DNA of 21,983 nt, taken from positions 1-21,983 of the IMG/VR virus record IMGVR_UViG_3300027760_001108. One strand, given 5' to 3'. Both the position numbers and the translations under genes were made by a program. Below are positions 4,319 through 21,983 of this stretch, one piece after another (the first letter of the stretch is position 1; each line of letters opens with the position of its first letter). Below the pieces are notes generated by a model. It had not been told where the DNA came from. It saw only the letters and a list, made by a program, of their open reading frames with translations, and searched no databases. Origin of the DNA: a virus.

Positions 4319-4732
4319 CTATTCAAGAAACTTTTTTGGAGGGCGTCCGATTCGGACATTAATAATACCGTTATAATAGTCGTCCCGCAGTAAAACGTTC
4401 TTAGCAATTTGTTCAGAAATTTCAAAATAAGCCAGCTCCCATTTTGAACCACACGTCTTTATTATTTTAAATATAAACTTTTCTTTTCCAAATTTCTTAA
4501 TATCTTCATTTAGTTCATTAGAAGAGCTGGTATACTCTTTCCAATCTGACTCCTTAATTTCTATTCTTTTATTCTTTCGGCCTTTAAGAGGTTTTCTTTT
4601 TAATTTTGATTTACACTGTTTTTTACCAATATATTTTTTACTATTTGCTGTATTAGTAATCTCGTATATAAAACCAAACGTGTCATTATTAATGGTGACG
4701 TTTTCGGCTAAAAGCCAGTGACCTAAATCCAT
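4319..4732 (-). CDS. GIY-YIG family endonuclease
   Basis: The 137-residue protein carries a GIY-YIG nuclease core: GFIYEITN (about 20-27) and KKYIGKKQ (about 32-39) form the two-strand signature, in which the first motif is a FIY variant. Further conserved-looking elements are DWKEYTSSSNEL, KFGKEKFIFKII, and E103 in the helix LAYFEISEQIA, a plausible metal-binding glutamate. It ends with DYYNGIINVRIG. It is a single-domain protein about the size of T4 endonuclease II (DenA, 136 aa), but resembles the free-standing phage GIY-YIG proteins more than DenA itself. It could be a homing-type endonuclease or a host/competitor DNA nuclease. It sits between two hypothetical genes on the same strand with short spacers. 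Confidence 0.8.
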   Translation of the reverse strand: MDLGHWLLAENVTINNDTFGFIYEITNTANSKKYIGKKQCKSKLKRKPLKGRKNKRIEIKESDWKEYTSSSNELNEDIKKFGKEKFIFKIIKTCGSKWELAYFEISEQIAKNVLLRDDYYNGIINVRIGRPPKKFLE

Positions 4733-14616: not shown

Positions 14617-15735
14617 ATGAGTAAAGATCTTAATAAAATATTCGCGTCGCTAGACAAGCTTAATAGCGAGGCATCAATGTTAAATGAAAATGCACTTAGT
14701 AAAGTTGATGAGTGGTTTGATACTGGATGTTACGCTCTTAACGCTATTCTCGGCGGTAGTTGTCGTAGTGGTGGCGTACCTAAGGGAAGAATAACCGGTT
14801 TTTCAGGACCTAGCCAGACAGGCAAGACATTTATTGTAAATAAAATTCTCGCTACTGCTCAGAAGAAAGGTCTTACTCCAGTTATATTTGATACTGAAAT
14901 CGCTATTGACGAAAACAGTACAAAAGGAGTCGGGTTAGACCCAGAAGGTACAAAATATGTACCGGTAGATACTATTGATCAATGTCGTAATCAAATTAGT
15001 GCCTTTCTTGATAGCGTAATCGAAAATAACGCAAGAGGTAAGTTTATTATTAGTATTGATAGTCTCGGTAACCTCGCCTCACAGAAAGAGCTCGATGACG
15101 TGGCTAAAGACAAATCCGCATCAGATATGGGCCTTCGTGCAAAGTCTTTGAAGAGTATGTTCCGTACATTAACATTTAAAGCTGCTAAAGCTGGTGTTAC
15201 GATTCTATTTACAAATCATACTTACGAAGACCCTGCTTCGATGTTTCCAAGTCTTGTAAAAAATCAGGCTGGAGGCTCAGGCCCGGTGTATATGGCTAGT
15301 ATTCTTGTACAGCTTGCCAAGCGTCATGAGAAGGAAGGTGAAGGTGATTCTATGGATGCTGATGATAAGAAGCTAGCAGAAGCTAATAAGTATAGCGGTA
15401 CAACGCTCCGTGCGCTAACTGTAAAAAATCGCTTCCTTCCACCGTTTTTAGAGACAGAAATGTATCTTTCTTTCAAGACTGGTCTTAACAAGTATAGTGG
15501 TTTGCTTGGTATGGCGACTGCAAGAGGTATCGTTGAACAAAATGGGGCTACGTATACCGTCGGTATTACTAGCGGTAAGTATAAGAAAGGTGATAAACTG
15601 GGTTATGCAAAGACTTTTGCAAAAGACCCCGCTTTCTACGAGGAGTTTATTATTCCAGAACTCGACAAGCGCTTAACAGAGGAATACAAATACAATATAA
15701 ATGAAGCGCCAAGCGAAGAAGAGCCCATCACGTAA
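14617..15735 (+). CDS. uvsX: UvsX recombinase (RecA-like)
   Basis: UvsX forms filaments on single-stranded DNA and catalyses strand exchange for repair and recombination-dependent replication. The 372 residues (T4: 391) show Walker A GPSQTGKT (64-71), the catalytic region FDTEIAIDE (91-99), Walker B KFIISIDSL (142-150), SQKELDD and TILFTNHTYEDP as the RecA-type allosteric region. DNA-binding loop 2 lies around KNQAGGSGP. The C-terminus is acidic (EAPSEEEPIT), as in T4 UvsX and RecA. The last 35 bases overlap the start of queC in another frame, so queC is co-transcribed with a core recombination gene. Confidence 0.97.
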   Translation: MSKDLNKIFASLDKLNSEASMLNENALSKVDEWFDTGCYALNAILGGSCRSGGVPKGRITGFSGPSQTGKTFIVNKILATAQKKGLTPVIFDTEIAIDENSTKGVGLDPEGTKYVPVDTIDQCRNQISAFLDSVIENNARGKFIISIDSLGNLASQKELDDVAKDKSASDMGLRAKSLKSMFRTLTFKAAKAGVTILFTNHTYEDPASMFPSLVKNQAGGSGPVYMASILVQLAKRHEKEGEGDSMDADDKKLAEANKYSGTTLRALTVKNRFLPPFLETEMYLSFKTGLNKYSGLLGMATARGIVEQNGATYTVGITSGKYKKGDKLGYAKTFAKDPAFYEEFIIPELDKRLTEEYKYNINEAPSEEEPIT

Positions 15736-16450
15736 AGCAGTTGTTCCTATTTCCGGCGGAATGGACAGTTCTGTGCTGTTACATTTAGCTGCAAGCGAGT
15801 ATGATAAAGTAATTACGGTTAACTATGACTATGGGCAGAAGCACCGTGATAAAGAAATAAACTGTGCGTCATTTCAGATCGAATCGGTTGATATGCCAGT
15901 CGATAGTTTACACATAAAATTACCGTTTTTTAAAGATATATGTCAAGTTTCTTCACTTCTTAATAACAAGGTTGCAGTAGCTAAGGCCAAGGATGTAATG
16001 GGCGATCCGCAGACGGTAAACTATGTTCCCTATAGGAACTTAATGCTGCTTAGTATTTCACTTGCAATAGCAGAAAACTACGGGGCTAGCACTGTTTTTC
16101 ATGGAGCTGCACAGGCCGATAGCGTTGCAGGGTTCTGGGATGGTAGTGAAGAATTTTTGGAGCAAATTAATAATGTATCAGCTTTGAACCGTAGAAATAA
16201 AATTACAGTACAAGCGCCGTTAATCGATAAATCTAAAGAGGAAATTATTAAACTGGGTATAAAACTTGGGGTAGATTTTAGCCAGACTTGGACTTGTTAT
16301 GAGGGAGAAGAGCAAGCTTGCGGTGAATGCACTGCGTGCTCTTTGAGAATAAAAGGCTTCATGGATGCAAGGTACATAGACCCTTTAAACTATAAGATTT
16401 CGTTACCTTGGGAAAAATATCACTGCAAAGTGATCAACAAACAACAGTAA
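15701..16450 (+). CDS. queC: QueC, 7-cyano-7-deazaguanine (preQ0) synthase
   Basis: QueC converts 7-carboxy-7-deazaguanine to preQ0 with ATP and ammonia. The 249-residue protein has the PP-loop SGGMDSS (18-24), the YDYGQKHRDKE region, VPYRN (109-113) and a C-terminal zinc site formed by C199, C207, C210 and C213 (CYEGEEQACGECTAC). The family Cys after GY.D is replaced by Gly (GFWDGSEEF). In phages QueC usually feeds 7-deazaguanine modification of DNA, or host queuosine tRNA modification. No FolE, QueD, QueE or DpdA lies in this window, so the pathway must be completed elsewhere or by the host. The start lies 35 bases inside uvsX; the 3' end overlaps the convergent adhesin gene by 17 bases. 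Confidence 0.95.
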   Translation: MKRQAKKSPSRKAVVPISGGMDSSVLLHLAASEYDKVITVNYDYGQKHRDKEINCASFQIESVDMPVDSLHIKLPFFKDICQVSSLLNNKVAVAKAKDVMGDPQTVNYVPYRNLMLLSISLAIAENYGASTVFHGAAQADSVAGFWDGSEEFLEQINNVSALNRRNKITVQAPLIDKSKEEIIKLGIKLGVDFSQTWTCYEGEEQACGECTACSLRIKGFMDARYIDPLNYKISLPWEKYHCKVINKQQ

Positions 16451-19401: not shown

Positions 19402-20310
19402 TTAATCACCGTAACTAAACCCGCCCGCGTCATAGCCGCGACGATTGTCAATAGCACCCATCGATCTCAATTCACTAGTAGCGGCATCATCTTCTGGATA
19501 TTCTTCTACAGTTTCAACTTCACCCGAGCCCTCACCTTCTTTCTTCTCTGAAGAAGGTACATAGCTATTTTTAAATTTTAATGAATCGATAAAGTCTTGT
19601 ACAACCTCTTTATCACTTGCCATTTTTTGATCATATGCACGTGTAATAGCTTCAATTACTTCATTCCTTAATTCAGGTGAATCATAAATGTCACCTTCTT
19701 CAACATTTATTTCATCTGGAAGTTCGACAAAAATAGGCTGCCATTCTTTAATAAATCGAGCATTAGAATTTTTTACAAATGAATTAGCTGCAGCGGGCGT
19801 TTCAGGTGAAGGTGATGTTCCTGGAGTACCCGGAGCTACAACAGCTTTACCTTGTATACCCGCATCTACCGCTTGCTTGACTTGACGCGGGCTAGCAGCT
19901 GTACCACCTTCTGCATCTACTCTAACTACATTTAAAAGATTATCGACTACGCGAGCTGTATACTTAGCAAGCGTACCACCTATCTTGAGTTCATTTTTAA
20001 TTAAATTCTCTAATTCTGTTCTAAATTTCATCTTTGATCCCGGGTAATATAGATCATATTCTTTACCATCTACAACGTGCTTTGCAGGTTTAAATAGCTT
20101 GGTTTTAATAGCTTGTAAAACTCTGTTAGCTATTTCAGTCTTTGTTTTACCCTCTTTTGCGGCTACTTGACCAATTCCATAACCTTTACCTGGTGCTGAT
20201 TCTACATCGCTTGAATAGCCTAAATCACCCATTCCATAGATAGGAGCTTCTGAAATAACTTGTTTTTTAGCGTTATATGCTTCAAATATTAACTTACAGT
20301 CCTTATTCAT
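19402..20310 (-). CDS. Hypothetical protein with two possible gp21-type sites at the N-terminus
   Basis: This 302-residue protein is not recognised. From the ATG at 20310 it starts MNKDCKLIFE|AYNAKKQVISE|APIYG, containing two perfect (L/I)-x-E|A sites like those cut in T4 head maturation. A globular part follows (about 40-145, with TELENLIKNELKIGGTLAKYTARVVDNLLNVV, possibly DNA-binding-like helices), then a Pro/Ala linker (about 160-175), a second domain and an acidic tail. A candidate late box AATAAATA lies 7 bases before this ATG. An upstream in-frame ATG at 20370 would add 20 residues but would overlap the divergent amidotransferase start and lose the promoter placement. A role as packaged head protein is inferred. 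Confidence 0.75.
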   Translation of the reverse strand: MNKDCKLIFEAYNAKKQVISEAPIYGMGDLGYSSDVESAPGKGYGIGQVAAKEGKTKTEIANRVLQAIKTKLFKPAKHVVDGKEYDLYYPGSKMKFRTELENLIKNELKIGGTLAKYTARVVDNLLNVVRVDAEGGTAASPRQVKQAVDAGIQGKAVVAPGTPGTSPSPETPAAANSFVKNSNARFIKEWQPIFVELPDEINVEEGDIYDSPELRNEVIEAITRAYDQKMASDKEVVQDFIDSLKFKNSYVPSSEKKEGEGSGEVETVEEYPEDDAATSELRSMGAIDNRRGYDAGGFSYGD

Positions 20311-20311
20311 C

Positions 20312-20339
20312 TTGAAATATTTATTCTTTGAATTATAAT
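20312..20339 (+). promoter_or_regulatory. Near-consensus sigma-70 promoter for the amidotransferase-GT-41 unit
   Basis: TTGAAA (20312-20317) and a perfect TATAAT (20334-20339) are separated by 16 bases, the best host-type promoter I find in the window. Predicted initiation near 20346 gives a very short leader that still contains GGAGG. It would drive the amidotransferase, the glycosyltransferase and possibly gene 41 early in infection. A minus-strand late box lies inside its spacer. Confidence 0.6.
20318..20325 (-). promoter_or_regulatory. Candidate late promoter box AATAAATA, divergent from the early promoter
   Basis: This minus-strand AATAAATA lies 7 bases before the ATG at 20310 and sits entirely within the spacer between the -35 and -10 of the plus-strand promoter. 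It is one mismatch from T4 TATAAATA. Early and late transcription from this site should exclude each other. Confidence 0.45.
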
Positions 20340-20344
20340 AATTT

Positions 20345-20350
20345 AGGAGG
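20345..20350 (+). promoter_or_regulatory. Perfect Shine-Dalgarno AGGAGG that fixes an ATT start
   Basis: AGGAGG ends 9 bases before the ATT at 20360. Most other genes of the window lack such a site. Upstream in frame there is a TAG at 20354-20356, then CAT, ATT, TGC. A strong Shine-Dalgarno is what a non-AUG start would need. Confidence 0.7.
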
Positions 20351-20359
20351 TTATAGCAT

Positions 20360-21043
20360 ATTTGCGGCATATTCGGCGCTAAAGAATTTACAAACTACGT
20401 AAATCTTTATAAGAGTAACAAGAAAAGGGGTACTTTTTCTTATGGTGGACTATTGATTGGTAATCAAATACACGCTATTCTGAAGAGTCCGGGTATAGCT
20501 CAACTTAGTAAGAAGCTTATAATTGAGTACGGTAAAAAGAGAAGACATATTACAGATTTTAATTATTTTTTAGGACACACTCAAGCACCTACCTCTGCAA
20601 AGAGATCGTTCTCGGCAGCTACCTCTCACCCCTTTCAATATAAAAATTGGATTATTGCACATAATGGTGTGTTAACTAACGATAAGCAGCTTAAAGCTAA
20701 TATAAAGGATAAAAAGGCTTATAATGTAGTAGACTCTTCTGTTATTGCGCCGCTAATAGAGCTTCATTATAAAAACTCGGGTGATGAAGTCACAGCAATA
20801 TGTAAAGCACTCTCACTATTACAAGGTACGTTTGGGCTATGGATATACAATCAAAAAACAGCTAATATATATCTTGCAAGGTCTGGTAGTACCTTATACT
20901 GTAACTTTCTTAATAACGAATTCTCTTCACTACCTGAAGATGAGTTCGTTCCTCTAGAAGAAGGTTTATTATATCTCCTAACAAAAGAAGGTGTAACATG
21001 TGTTGGTAAATTTACACCAAATTCGCCGTTCTTTACATCATGA
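20360..21043 (+). CDS. Class II glutamine amidotransferase, stand-alone, apparent ATT start
   Basis: Class II (N-terminal nucleophile) amidotransferases release ammonia from glutamine using an N-terminal Cys. From the ATT at 20360 the protein is 227 residues starting M-C-G-I-F-G, placing the catalytic Cys directly after the initiator as in GlmS, PurF and AsnB. GHTQAPT (72-78) corresponds to GlmS GHTRWAT, HPF and AHNGVLTN (101-108) to the oxyanion Asn-Gly, and VVDSSVIA (D125) to the GlmS Asp near 123. GlmS Arg73, which holds the glutamine carboxylate, is replaced by Gln. It lacks a synthase or SIS domain, so a partner must use the ammonia. A TTG at 20453 would remove the Cys. Candidates for the partner are QueC (deoxyarchaeosine) or a sugar enzyme. 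The stop overlaps the next start by 4 bases. Confidence 0.88.
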   Translation: MCGIFGAKEFTNYVNLYKSNKKRGTFSYGGLLIGNQIHAILKSPGIAQLSKKLIIEYGKKRRHITDFNYFLGHTQAPTSAKRSFSAATSHPFQYKNWIIAHNGVLTNDKQLKANIKDKKAYNVVDSSVIAPLIELHYKNSGDEVTAICKALSLLQGTFGLWIYNQKTANIYLARSGSTLYCNFLNNEFSSLPEDEFVPLEEGLLYLLTKEGVTCVGKFTPNSPFFTS

Positions 21044-21714
21044 AAATTGCTTTTTATTTTGCAACCAGAAGTAAGGAATTTACTGAAACCTCTGCATATA
21101 AATCTTTATCTAGATTAAAAGATAAAATTACTATTCTTCATGATTCAGAAAACACTTTAGGGTTAAGTGAGAGATATAATCAAATTATTTCTACGTATAA
21201 AAACGATTTCGATAATATTGTGTTTGTTCATGATGATGTATACGTAGATGATTTGTATGTTTGTGAAAAACTAGAAAGAGCTCATAAAGATTTTGATATT
21301 GTAGGTCTTGCGGGCGGAGTTAACCCTAAAATTCAAAAGCTAGCATTATGGCATTTAATGTGTGGTGGTTTTAATAGTAATAATCTTAGAGGGGCGGTTG
21401 CACATCCTATAAATGAAAGTGGTCAAATATTTATGACTAGCTTTGGCCCTACACCCGCGCGTGTAGCTTTACTTGATGGATTGTTTTTAAGTGTTAATGT
21501 ACGCAAAGCTAATTCTGTAGGCTGGAAGTTTAACGAAAATTATACTTTCCATCATTATGACATAGCTAGTAGTATAGATGCCAATATTAGAAAGCTTAAA
21601 CTTGGCGTTGCCCCTATTTGGGTTGTTCATAAATCACCAGGCCTTTTAAATACAAATGATAAATTATTTCTCGACAGCCAAGATAAGTTCATTAAAGAAT
21701 ATAGCAAGCATTGA
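21040..21714 (+). CDS. GT-A fold glycosyltransferase
   Basis: This 224-residue protein resembles small family 2-like glycosyltransferases. It starts with a strand MKIAFYFATRS, has SLGL-type LGLSERYN (about 41-48), then the metal/nucleotide-sugar motif VFVHDDVYVDD (61-71) with an HDD/DxD core. DIVGLAGGVNPK follows, and LLDGLFLSVN, FHHYDIASS and VVHKSPG lie in the acceptor/C-terminal half. The nucleotide-sugar donor and acceptor are not determinable from sequence. It overlaps the amidotransferase by ATGA and precedes gene 41 by 33 bases, so it is expressed with both. Sugar modification of phage DNA, virion proteins or host surface are alternatives; glf in the same island suggests galactofuranose chemistry as one option. 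Confidence 0.82.
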   Translation: MKIAFYFATRSKEFTETSAYKSLSRLKDKITILHDSENTLGLSERYNQIISTYKNDFDNIVFVHDDVYVDDLYVCEKLERAHKDFDIVGLAGGVNPKIQKLALWHLMCGGFNSNNLRGAVAHPINESGQIFMTSFGPTPARVALLDGLFLSVNVRKANSVGWKFNENYTFHHYDIASSIDANIRKLKLGVAPIWVVHKSPGLLNTNDKLFLDSQDKFIKEYSKH

Positions 21715-21747: not shown

Positions 21748-21983
21748 ATGGCTAAGCTAGATTTAGATTATTTTGAAACTATAATTACTTACAAATCTCT
21801 TACCGATGAGATGTATCTTGCTTCAATTATTGATTACATAAAGCCTATCTACTTTAAAAATAAAGATATAAAAGTCGTTTTTACTATTATTCGCGACTTT
21901 TACGAAAAGCATAGCAAATGTCCAACTATTACTGAAGTTAAAGCGTATCTTACTACAGATGAATTAAAGAATTCACTAAAGAC
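21748..21983 (+). CDS. 41: 5' end of gp41-like replicative helicase (DnaB family)
   Basis: The frame starting ATG GCT AAG is open to the window end (78 codons) and encodes MAKLDLDYFETIITYKSL, then EMYLASIIDYIKPIYF, FTIIRDFYEKHSKCPTI and TEVKAYL. This follows the pattern of the N-terminal domain of T4 gp41 (strand-less helical bundle; FKLIKSHVNEYHSVPSINAL in T4). The ATPase domain lies beyond the window. In related phages gene 41 follows uvsX closely; here about 6 kb separates them. No Shine-Dalgarno is visible. A TATATT at 21731-21736 precedes the ATG by 11 bases. Confidence 0.82.
   Translation, partial: MAKLDLDYFETIITYKSLTDEMYLASIIDYIKPIYFKNKDIKVVFTIIRDFYEKHSKCPTITEVKAYLTTDELKNSLK

Follow-up and report, generated by a model that had tools for sequence, protein, structure and literature searches.

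An AUU Start Codon with a Strong Shine-Dalgarno Sequence in a Phage Amidotransferase Gene: A Probable Cassette-Borne Start Module

The Amidotransferase Locus

The window, a viral record of 21,983 bases from a T4-like phage, encodes a class II glutamine amidotransferase (GATase) of 227 amino acids on the plus strand (20360-21043), in a reading frame open for 227 codons up to the stop at 21041-21043. The protein matches PF13522 (E 2.7e-10) and PF13537 (1.3e-6), both exceeding the cut-off, its nearest solved structures are the glutaminase domains of GFAT (1xff; 4e-10), and Cys2 (the nucleophile), the HNG motif (H101, N102, G103) and Asp125 are invariant in the alignment (A1). These profiles, structure matches and residues bear out the original prediction of a class II enzyme with an N-terminal Cys. 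As in GFAT and other class II amidotransferases, the Cys comes right after the initiator and the HNG and Asp motifs accompany a PF13522 match; unlike them, the phage protein is a stand-alone domain, encoded in a phage operon and AUU-initiated. Glutaminase activity with an exposed N-terminal Cys is predicted from family membership.

The next gene on the plus strand (21040-21714) is glycosyltransferase-like: its match to PF13712 falls slightly under the cut-off in the window and over it in a relative (L002). Its start overlaps the GATase stop as ATGA, and it is likely to be translationally coupled to GATase. The 5′ part of a gene for a DnaB-like replicative helicase follows (21748-21981, plus strand), truncated by the window end; in relatives, a gene of ~95 aa, a bS21 gene and a conserved gene of ~215 aa lie beyond the helicase, the last in the position of a primase subunit and without a match in Pfam. 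On the left, the start region is bordered by a divergent gene of 302 aa on the minus strand (19402-20310, ATG at 20310; MNKDCKLIFEAYN).

The Start Region

Read 5′ to 3′ on the plus strand, the start region comprises a predicted -35-like hexamer TTGAAA (20312-20317; TTGAA[AT] is kept across the whole clade and the AUG sister clades), a conserved -10 element TATAAT 16 nt further on (20334-20339), a Shine-Dalgarno (SD) sequence AGGAGG (20345-20350), an in-frame TAG (20354-20356) that shuts the frame 5′ of the start, CAT (20357-20359) and ATT (20360-20362), with a spacer of 9 nt between SD and ATT. From 20363 the frame continues as TGC GGC ATA TTC GGC (Cys-Gly-Ile-Phe-Gly), and no ATG, GTG or TTG is in frame from TAG to the Cys codon; this arrangement of AGGAGG, stop, ATT and Cys is just what the original prediction had described. 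The transcript is predicted to start at ~20345-20347, a position calibrated by the genome-wide peak of TATAAT at -12 of ATG genes, which would place the SD at the extreme 5′ end of the mRNA. A search for open reading frames with canonical starts begins the gene 31 codons late, at TTG 20453, and the catalytic Cys is lost; gene callers miss AUU starts. To our knowledge, conserved AUU starts other than that of infC are scarcely documented.

Conservation of AUU

ATT occupies the start codon in 35/35 close family members (viral contigs, window included), which disposes of sequencing error and supports the claim that AUU is the start codon. AGGAGG (GGGAGG in two) lies 8-10 nt 5′ of it, and the spacer varies in both length and sequence. 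An alignment of homologues had been proposed to settle the identity of the start, with ATG in close relatives as the sign of a mistake; ATG appears instead in more distant clades, nearly always without an SD and with TATAAT positioned as in a leaderless mRNA.

Among 30 distinct DNAs of the family, on average 53% of codons differ in their third position and 73 of the 79 residue-invariant columns employ more than one codon, yet the start is ATT in 30/30. Silent sites being saturated, an unconstrained third base of the start should have changed, ATG included; comparison of the genes supports AUU as the start codon, from which the gene would be translated in the cell. Codons 4, 8 and 10 use one codon each across the 30 distinct genes, suggesting that the initiation region overall is somewhat constrained.

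AUU with an SD Versus AUG without One

Across the wider family, a census of 141 distinct leader/gene combinations (loci) was taken, a strong SD being defined by an anti-SD duplex energy of -7 kcal/mol or lower. All 48 ATT genes have a strong SD (median anti-SD energy at ATT loci, -11.5 kcal/mol) versus 3/92 ATG genes (L262, L263, L269), giving a Fisher p of 2e-34 that ignores relatedness. A search with a protein seed that left out the N-terminus retrieved three ATT genes, each with a strong SD, and 75 ATG genes, all lacking one. The strong SD accompanies AUU as expected if it compensates for the rare codon, a relation that the original prediction had proposed from one gene. Distant family members start with ATG and mostly lack an SD, and TATAAT often lies 9-15 nt 5′ of their ATG.

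Mapped onto a tree of 81 proteins, the start codon has to change between ATG and ATT seven times, at least five of them forced by well-supported branches; long-branch warnings attach to this tree, and it does not fix how many origins there were. The comparison indicates that AUU with an SD and AUG without one were swapped for one another repeatedly. The leaders of L262 and L263 pair ATG with an SD-like stretch at poor spacing that resembles the cassette leader (see below) of their relative L255; loss of the endonuclease followed by reversion to ATG is possible in these two.

An SD-Poor Genome with Leaderless-Looking Starts

The background against which this SD stands was surveyed in ten related contigs of ~950 kb (G000, G002, G005, G008, G009, G011-G015). 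Hardly any gene but the amidotransferase has AGGAGG at SD distance: of 717 ATG-start genes, none is preceded by AGGAGG and one by GGAGG, so the SD is indeed unusually strong for this genome, as originally claimed. On the amidotransferase strand, the first base of TATAAT peaks at -12 from ATG (30 genes versus a mean of 1.0 per position). A TATAAT at -12 puts the predicted transcription start at the A of ATG, and many genes look leaderless as a result; this suggests that leaderless mRNAs are widespread in these T4-like phages. In the same contigs, TATAAATA peaks at -13/-14 of ATG starts.

AUU initiation as a general habit of these phages was considered and discarded. A screen of conserved open reading frames in the ten contigs, left unrefined, flagged many; by eye, the amidotransferase is the sole recognisable gene with a conserved ATT start and without a canonical one, and the others look like antisense frames or genes behind conserved promoter sequence.

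A Putative Endonuclease Cassette at the Start Codon of Sister Loci

An endonuclease gene with GIY-YIG features lies on the opposite strand directly 5′ of several ATT genes. Its match to PF01541 (GIY-YIG) is marginal: 22.9 bits in L297 against a cut-off of 22.6, 21.2 bits in L224, and in L324 just a weak SegE match. Close homologues (≥43% identity) occur in nine contigs, and 9/9 are divergent from an ATT amidotransferase gene with an SD; none was found adjoining ATG genes among the family loci examined.

Two near-identical pairs resolve the junction. In L333/L335 and L336/L337, the ATT allele corresponds to the ATG allele with a 711-bp insertion at the exact start codon, which swaps ATG for endonuclease, leader, AGGAG and ATT. 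Up to the start codon, L336 and L337 are colinear and 94.3% identical over 1129 bp; from it onward they are again colinear and 96.7% identical over 4169 bp, and within the first 50 coding bases they differ solely at the third base of the start codon. L333 and L335, with an insertion of identical type, are 99.2% identical before it and 99.7% after, bases 3 and 6 being the sole differences in the first 150. The SD is supplied by the cassette leader, aaacagaaaggagacacgtt. The element is present or absent at one site in near-identical genomes, and it is a putative free-standing homing endonuclease cassette, predicted to cut the empty allele site-specifically and to be mobile.

Another cassette type has a near-identical leader in L236, L238 and L255, three lineages with differing downstream genes, and the shared stretch stops at ATT; in L238, a remnant of the endonuclease (first codons only) is kept with the SD+ATT leader. 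The left boundary of the cassette varies (about -1, -12, -33), while the right boundary is the start codon every time. The longer leader of L224, L236, L238 and L255 contains a small open reading frame (MNNIYSNRRGG* or near variants) that ends four bases 5′ of ATT, and reinitiation at AUU after this SD-overlapping frame is conceivable. The endonuclease start (M[YF]YYIYK) of L224, L324 and L325 reads TATAAT on its antisense strand, in the direction of the amidotransferase; these first codons may supply a promoter for the displaced gene.

The free-standing GIY-YIG homing endonucleases of T4-like phages are the seg genes (review PMC2988022). Like them, the cassette is an intergenic endonuclease gene in a T4-like genome, is present or absent between near-identical phages and may carry a promoter or leader to its neighbour. 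It differs from them in that its right boundary is the neighbour's start codon, turned into ATT, in that it supplies an SD along with AUU, and in its marginal domain match. No comparable start-codon-replacing cassette turned up in the literature searched (open-licence papers). The window has a SegE-like GIY-YIG endonuclease gene of its own at 4319-4732 on the minus strand (PF19835, E 7e-31), from another endonuclease family than the start-codon cassette.

A Start Module Probably Delivered by a Cassette

These observations are best accounted for, with somewhat better than even confidence, by a start module of AUU and SD that was brought by a homing cassette and in which the SD renders AUU usable. 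Initiator tRNA would decode AUU as fMet, and removal of Met would bare Cys2, the catalytic nucleophile. A strong SD 8-10 nt 5′ would enable AUU, in phages whose starts are otherwise mostly SD-less and often leaderless AUG. The AUU+SD leader would be an alternative module that displaced the family's SD-less AUG start several times and, in the best-resolved cases, is the part of a free-standing GIY-YIG-like cassette that adjoins the gene, the cassette having inserted exactly at the start codon. Since the cassette would provide leader, SD and ATT as ATG is lost, the target gene would remain expressed. The altered start region probably keeps the endonuclease off its own allele; against such immunity, free-standing endonucleases of T4 usually cleave DNA a long way from where they are inserted (PMC2988022).

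In the window and every member of its clade, no endonuclease or remnant adjoins the start (upstream 1.1 kb), and two further ATT genes (L225, L278) have no adjacent endonuclease. An endonuclease origin for the window's own clade is therefore argued by analogy with the sister loci, and its module would most likely be an insertion remnant or have been gained by recombination.

Immunity alone does not explain why the codon is invariably ATT and never GTG or TTG. ATA in place of ATT would yield an out-of-frame ATG (ATATG), while ATT yields a canonical out-of-frame TTG overlapping ATT-TGY. In E. coli, start codons that overlap (AUGUG, GUGUG) can be read ambiguously (PMC9841429), and some mis-initiation is accordingly to be expected at ATT-TGY too, where the out-of-frame TTG should compete with AUU.

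A stronger form of the cassette reading, which we put forward tentatively and as falling somewhat short of an even chance, is that an endonuclease family is specialised on the start codon, and that AUU in endonuclease-free phages is a lasting immune footprint. Such an element would insert at the AUG of one phage gene, bearing its own SD and AUU; its own allele would be uncuttable and the target gene would stay on. If the endonuclease link holds, a selfish element hits a start codon and mends the damage with a non-canonical one. The near-identical natural ATG/ATT allele pairs make the efficiency and retention of AUU with a strong SD directly testable.

Alternative Explanations

The original prediction tied the gene to initiation-factor status. 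In E. coli and Streptomyces, initiation at AUU and other non-canonical codons is repressed by IF3 (infC, sigR; PMC5472188), and leaderless mRNAs are affected by IF3 (PMC9031893). IF3 repression might be what keeps AUU, with GATase and its coupled neighbour made when stringency drops, e.g., during infection. Such regulation is favoured by the strong conservation of AUU and by the action of IF3 as repressor both of AUU in E. coli and of the GUC start of Streptomyces sigR (PMC5472188); yet no IF3 homologue was found among 15 related phage contigs, orthologues that start with AUG in the same operon manage without it, and in the clean pairs a mobile cassette brings AUU. The proposed tie is consequently not supported, and regulation of this type is unlikely. 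Like infC (AUU) and sigR (GTC), the phage gene is a real gene with a conserved non-canonical start codon; in contrast to them, it encodes neither an initiation factor nor a sigma factor, and its AUU always goes with a strong SD, in a genome otherwise poor in SDs, IF3 control being a conjecture. The biochemistry of infC and sigR makes sensitivity of the window's AUU to IF3 likely, as a consequence more than a demonstrated purpose.

Less likely again is a sensor of ribosome state, an idea attractive initially, in which the lone SD with AUU, in an SD-blind host, would be read chiefly by bS21-lacking ribosomes with an exposed anti-SD, which would couple this bS21-encoding operon to the composition of the ribosome, in the manner of Flavobacterium rpsU. 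The amidotransferase SD is virtually the only strong SD in the contigs, the bS21 gene lies 2.4-3.1 kb downstream in the helicase operon of each of the 14 AUU contigs tested (e.g., L121:4056-4262, G011:84906-85037, G013:48822-48959), with one contig slightly below the family cut-off, and F. johnsoniae ribosomes without bS21 favour strong SDs (PMC9976891). Phages with bS21 that are predicted to infect Bacteroidetes are known (PMC9723584). A single strong SD, an SD-poor genome and a bS21 operon are shared with Flavobacterium rpsU (PMC9976891), where autoregulation involves a strong SD on the bS21 gene; the phage SD is on the amidotransferase gene, with an AUU start, and no SD is present at the bS21 starts. 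The idea is weakened by sister phages with the same operon that have AUG and no SD and still keep bS21, and the genome contigs searched for a host gave distant amidotransferases only, from which no host can be named.

Improbable too, and ranked after the sensor, is a ceiling on expression: too much protein would be made from AUG behind a well-placed strong SD, AUU would be an attenuator and the endonuclease link incidental. AUG with a well-placed strong SD is nearly missing from the family, the SD-like stretches of L262 and L263 being poorly spaced, but a ceiling leaves unaccounted for both the insertion at the exact start codon in the natural pairs and the lack of GTG or TTG.

An artefact or a wrong start, with initiation at an upstream or overlapping codon, is hardly credible: the overlapping out-of-frame TTG and the in-frame upstream ATG (L224/L226) or TTG (three loci) could be cited for it, but the records with ATT are independent, a stop is the first in-frame signal met upstream in 42/48 ATT loci, which closes most frames to an N-terminal extension, the L224/L226 ATG is not retained in sister cassettes (L236/L237), and Cys2 is invariant.

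Other Features of the Genome

No tRNA genes were found within the window, and named phages share at most ~34% identity with the phage's polymerase and UvsX. A QueC gene is present at 15701-16450, and in most relatives too one lies shortly upstream of the amidotransferase gene. The N-terminal part of PHROG 10428 matches the amidotransferase and its C-terminal part matches QueC; the two may function as a split Gat-QueC pair in 7-deazaguanine modification.
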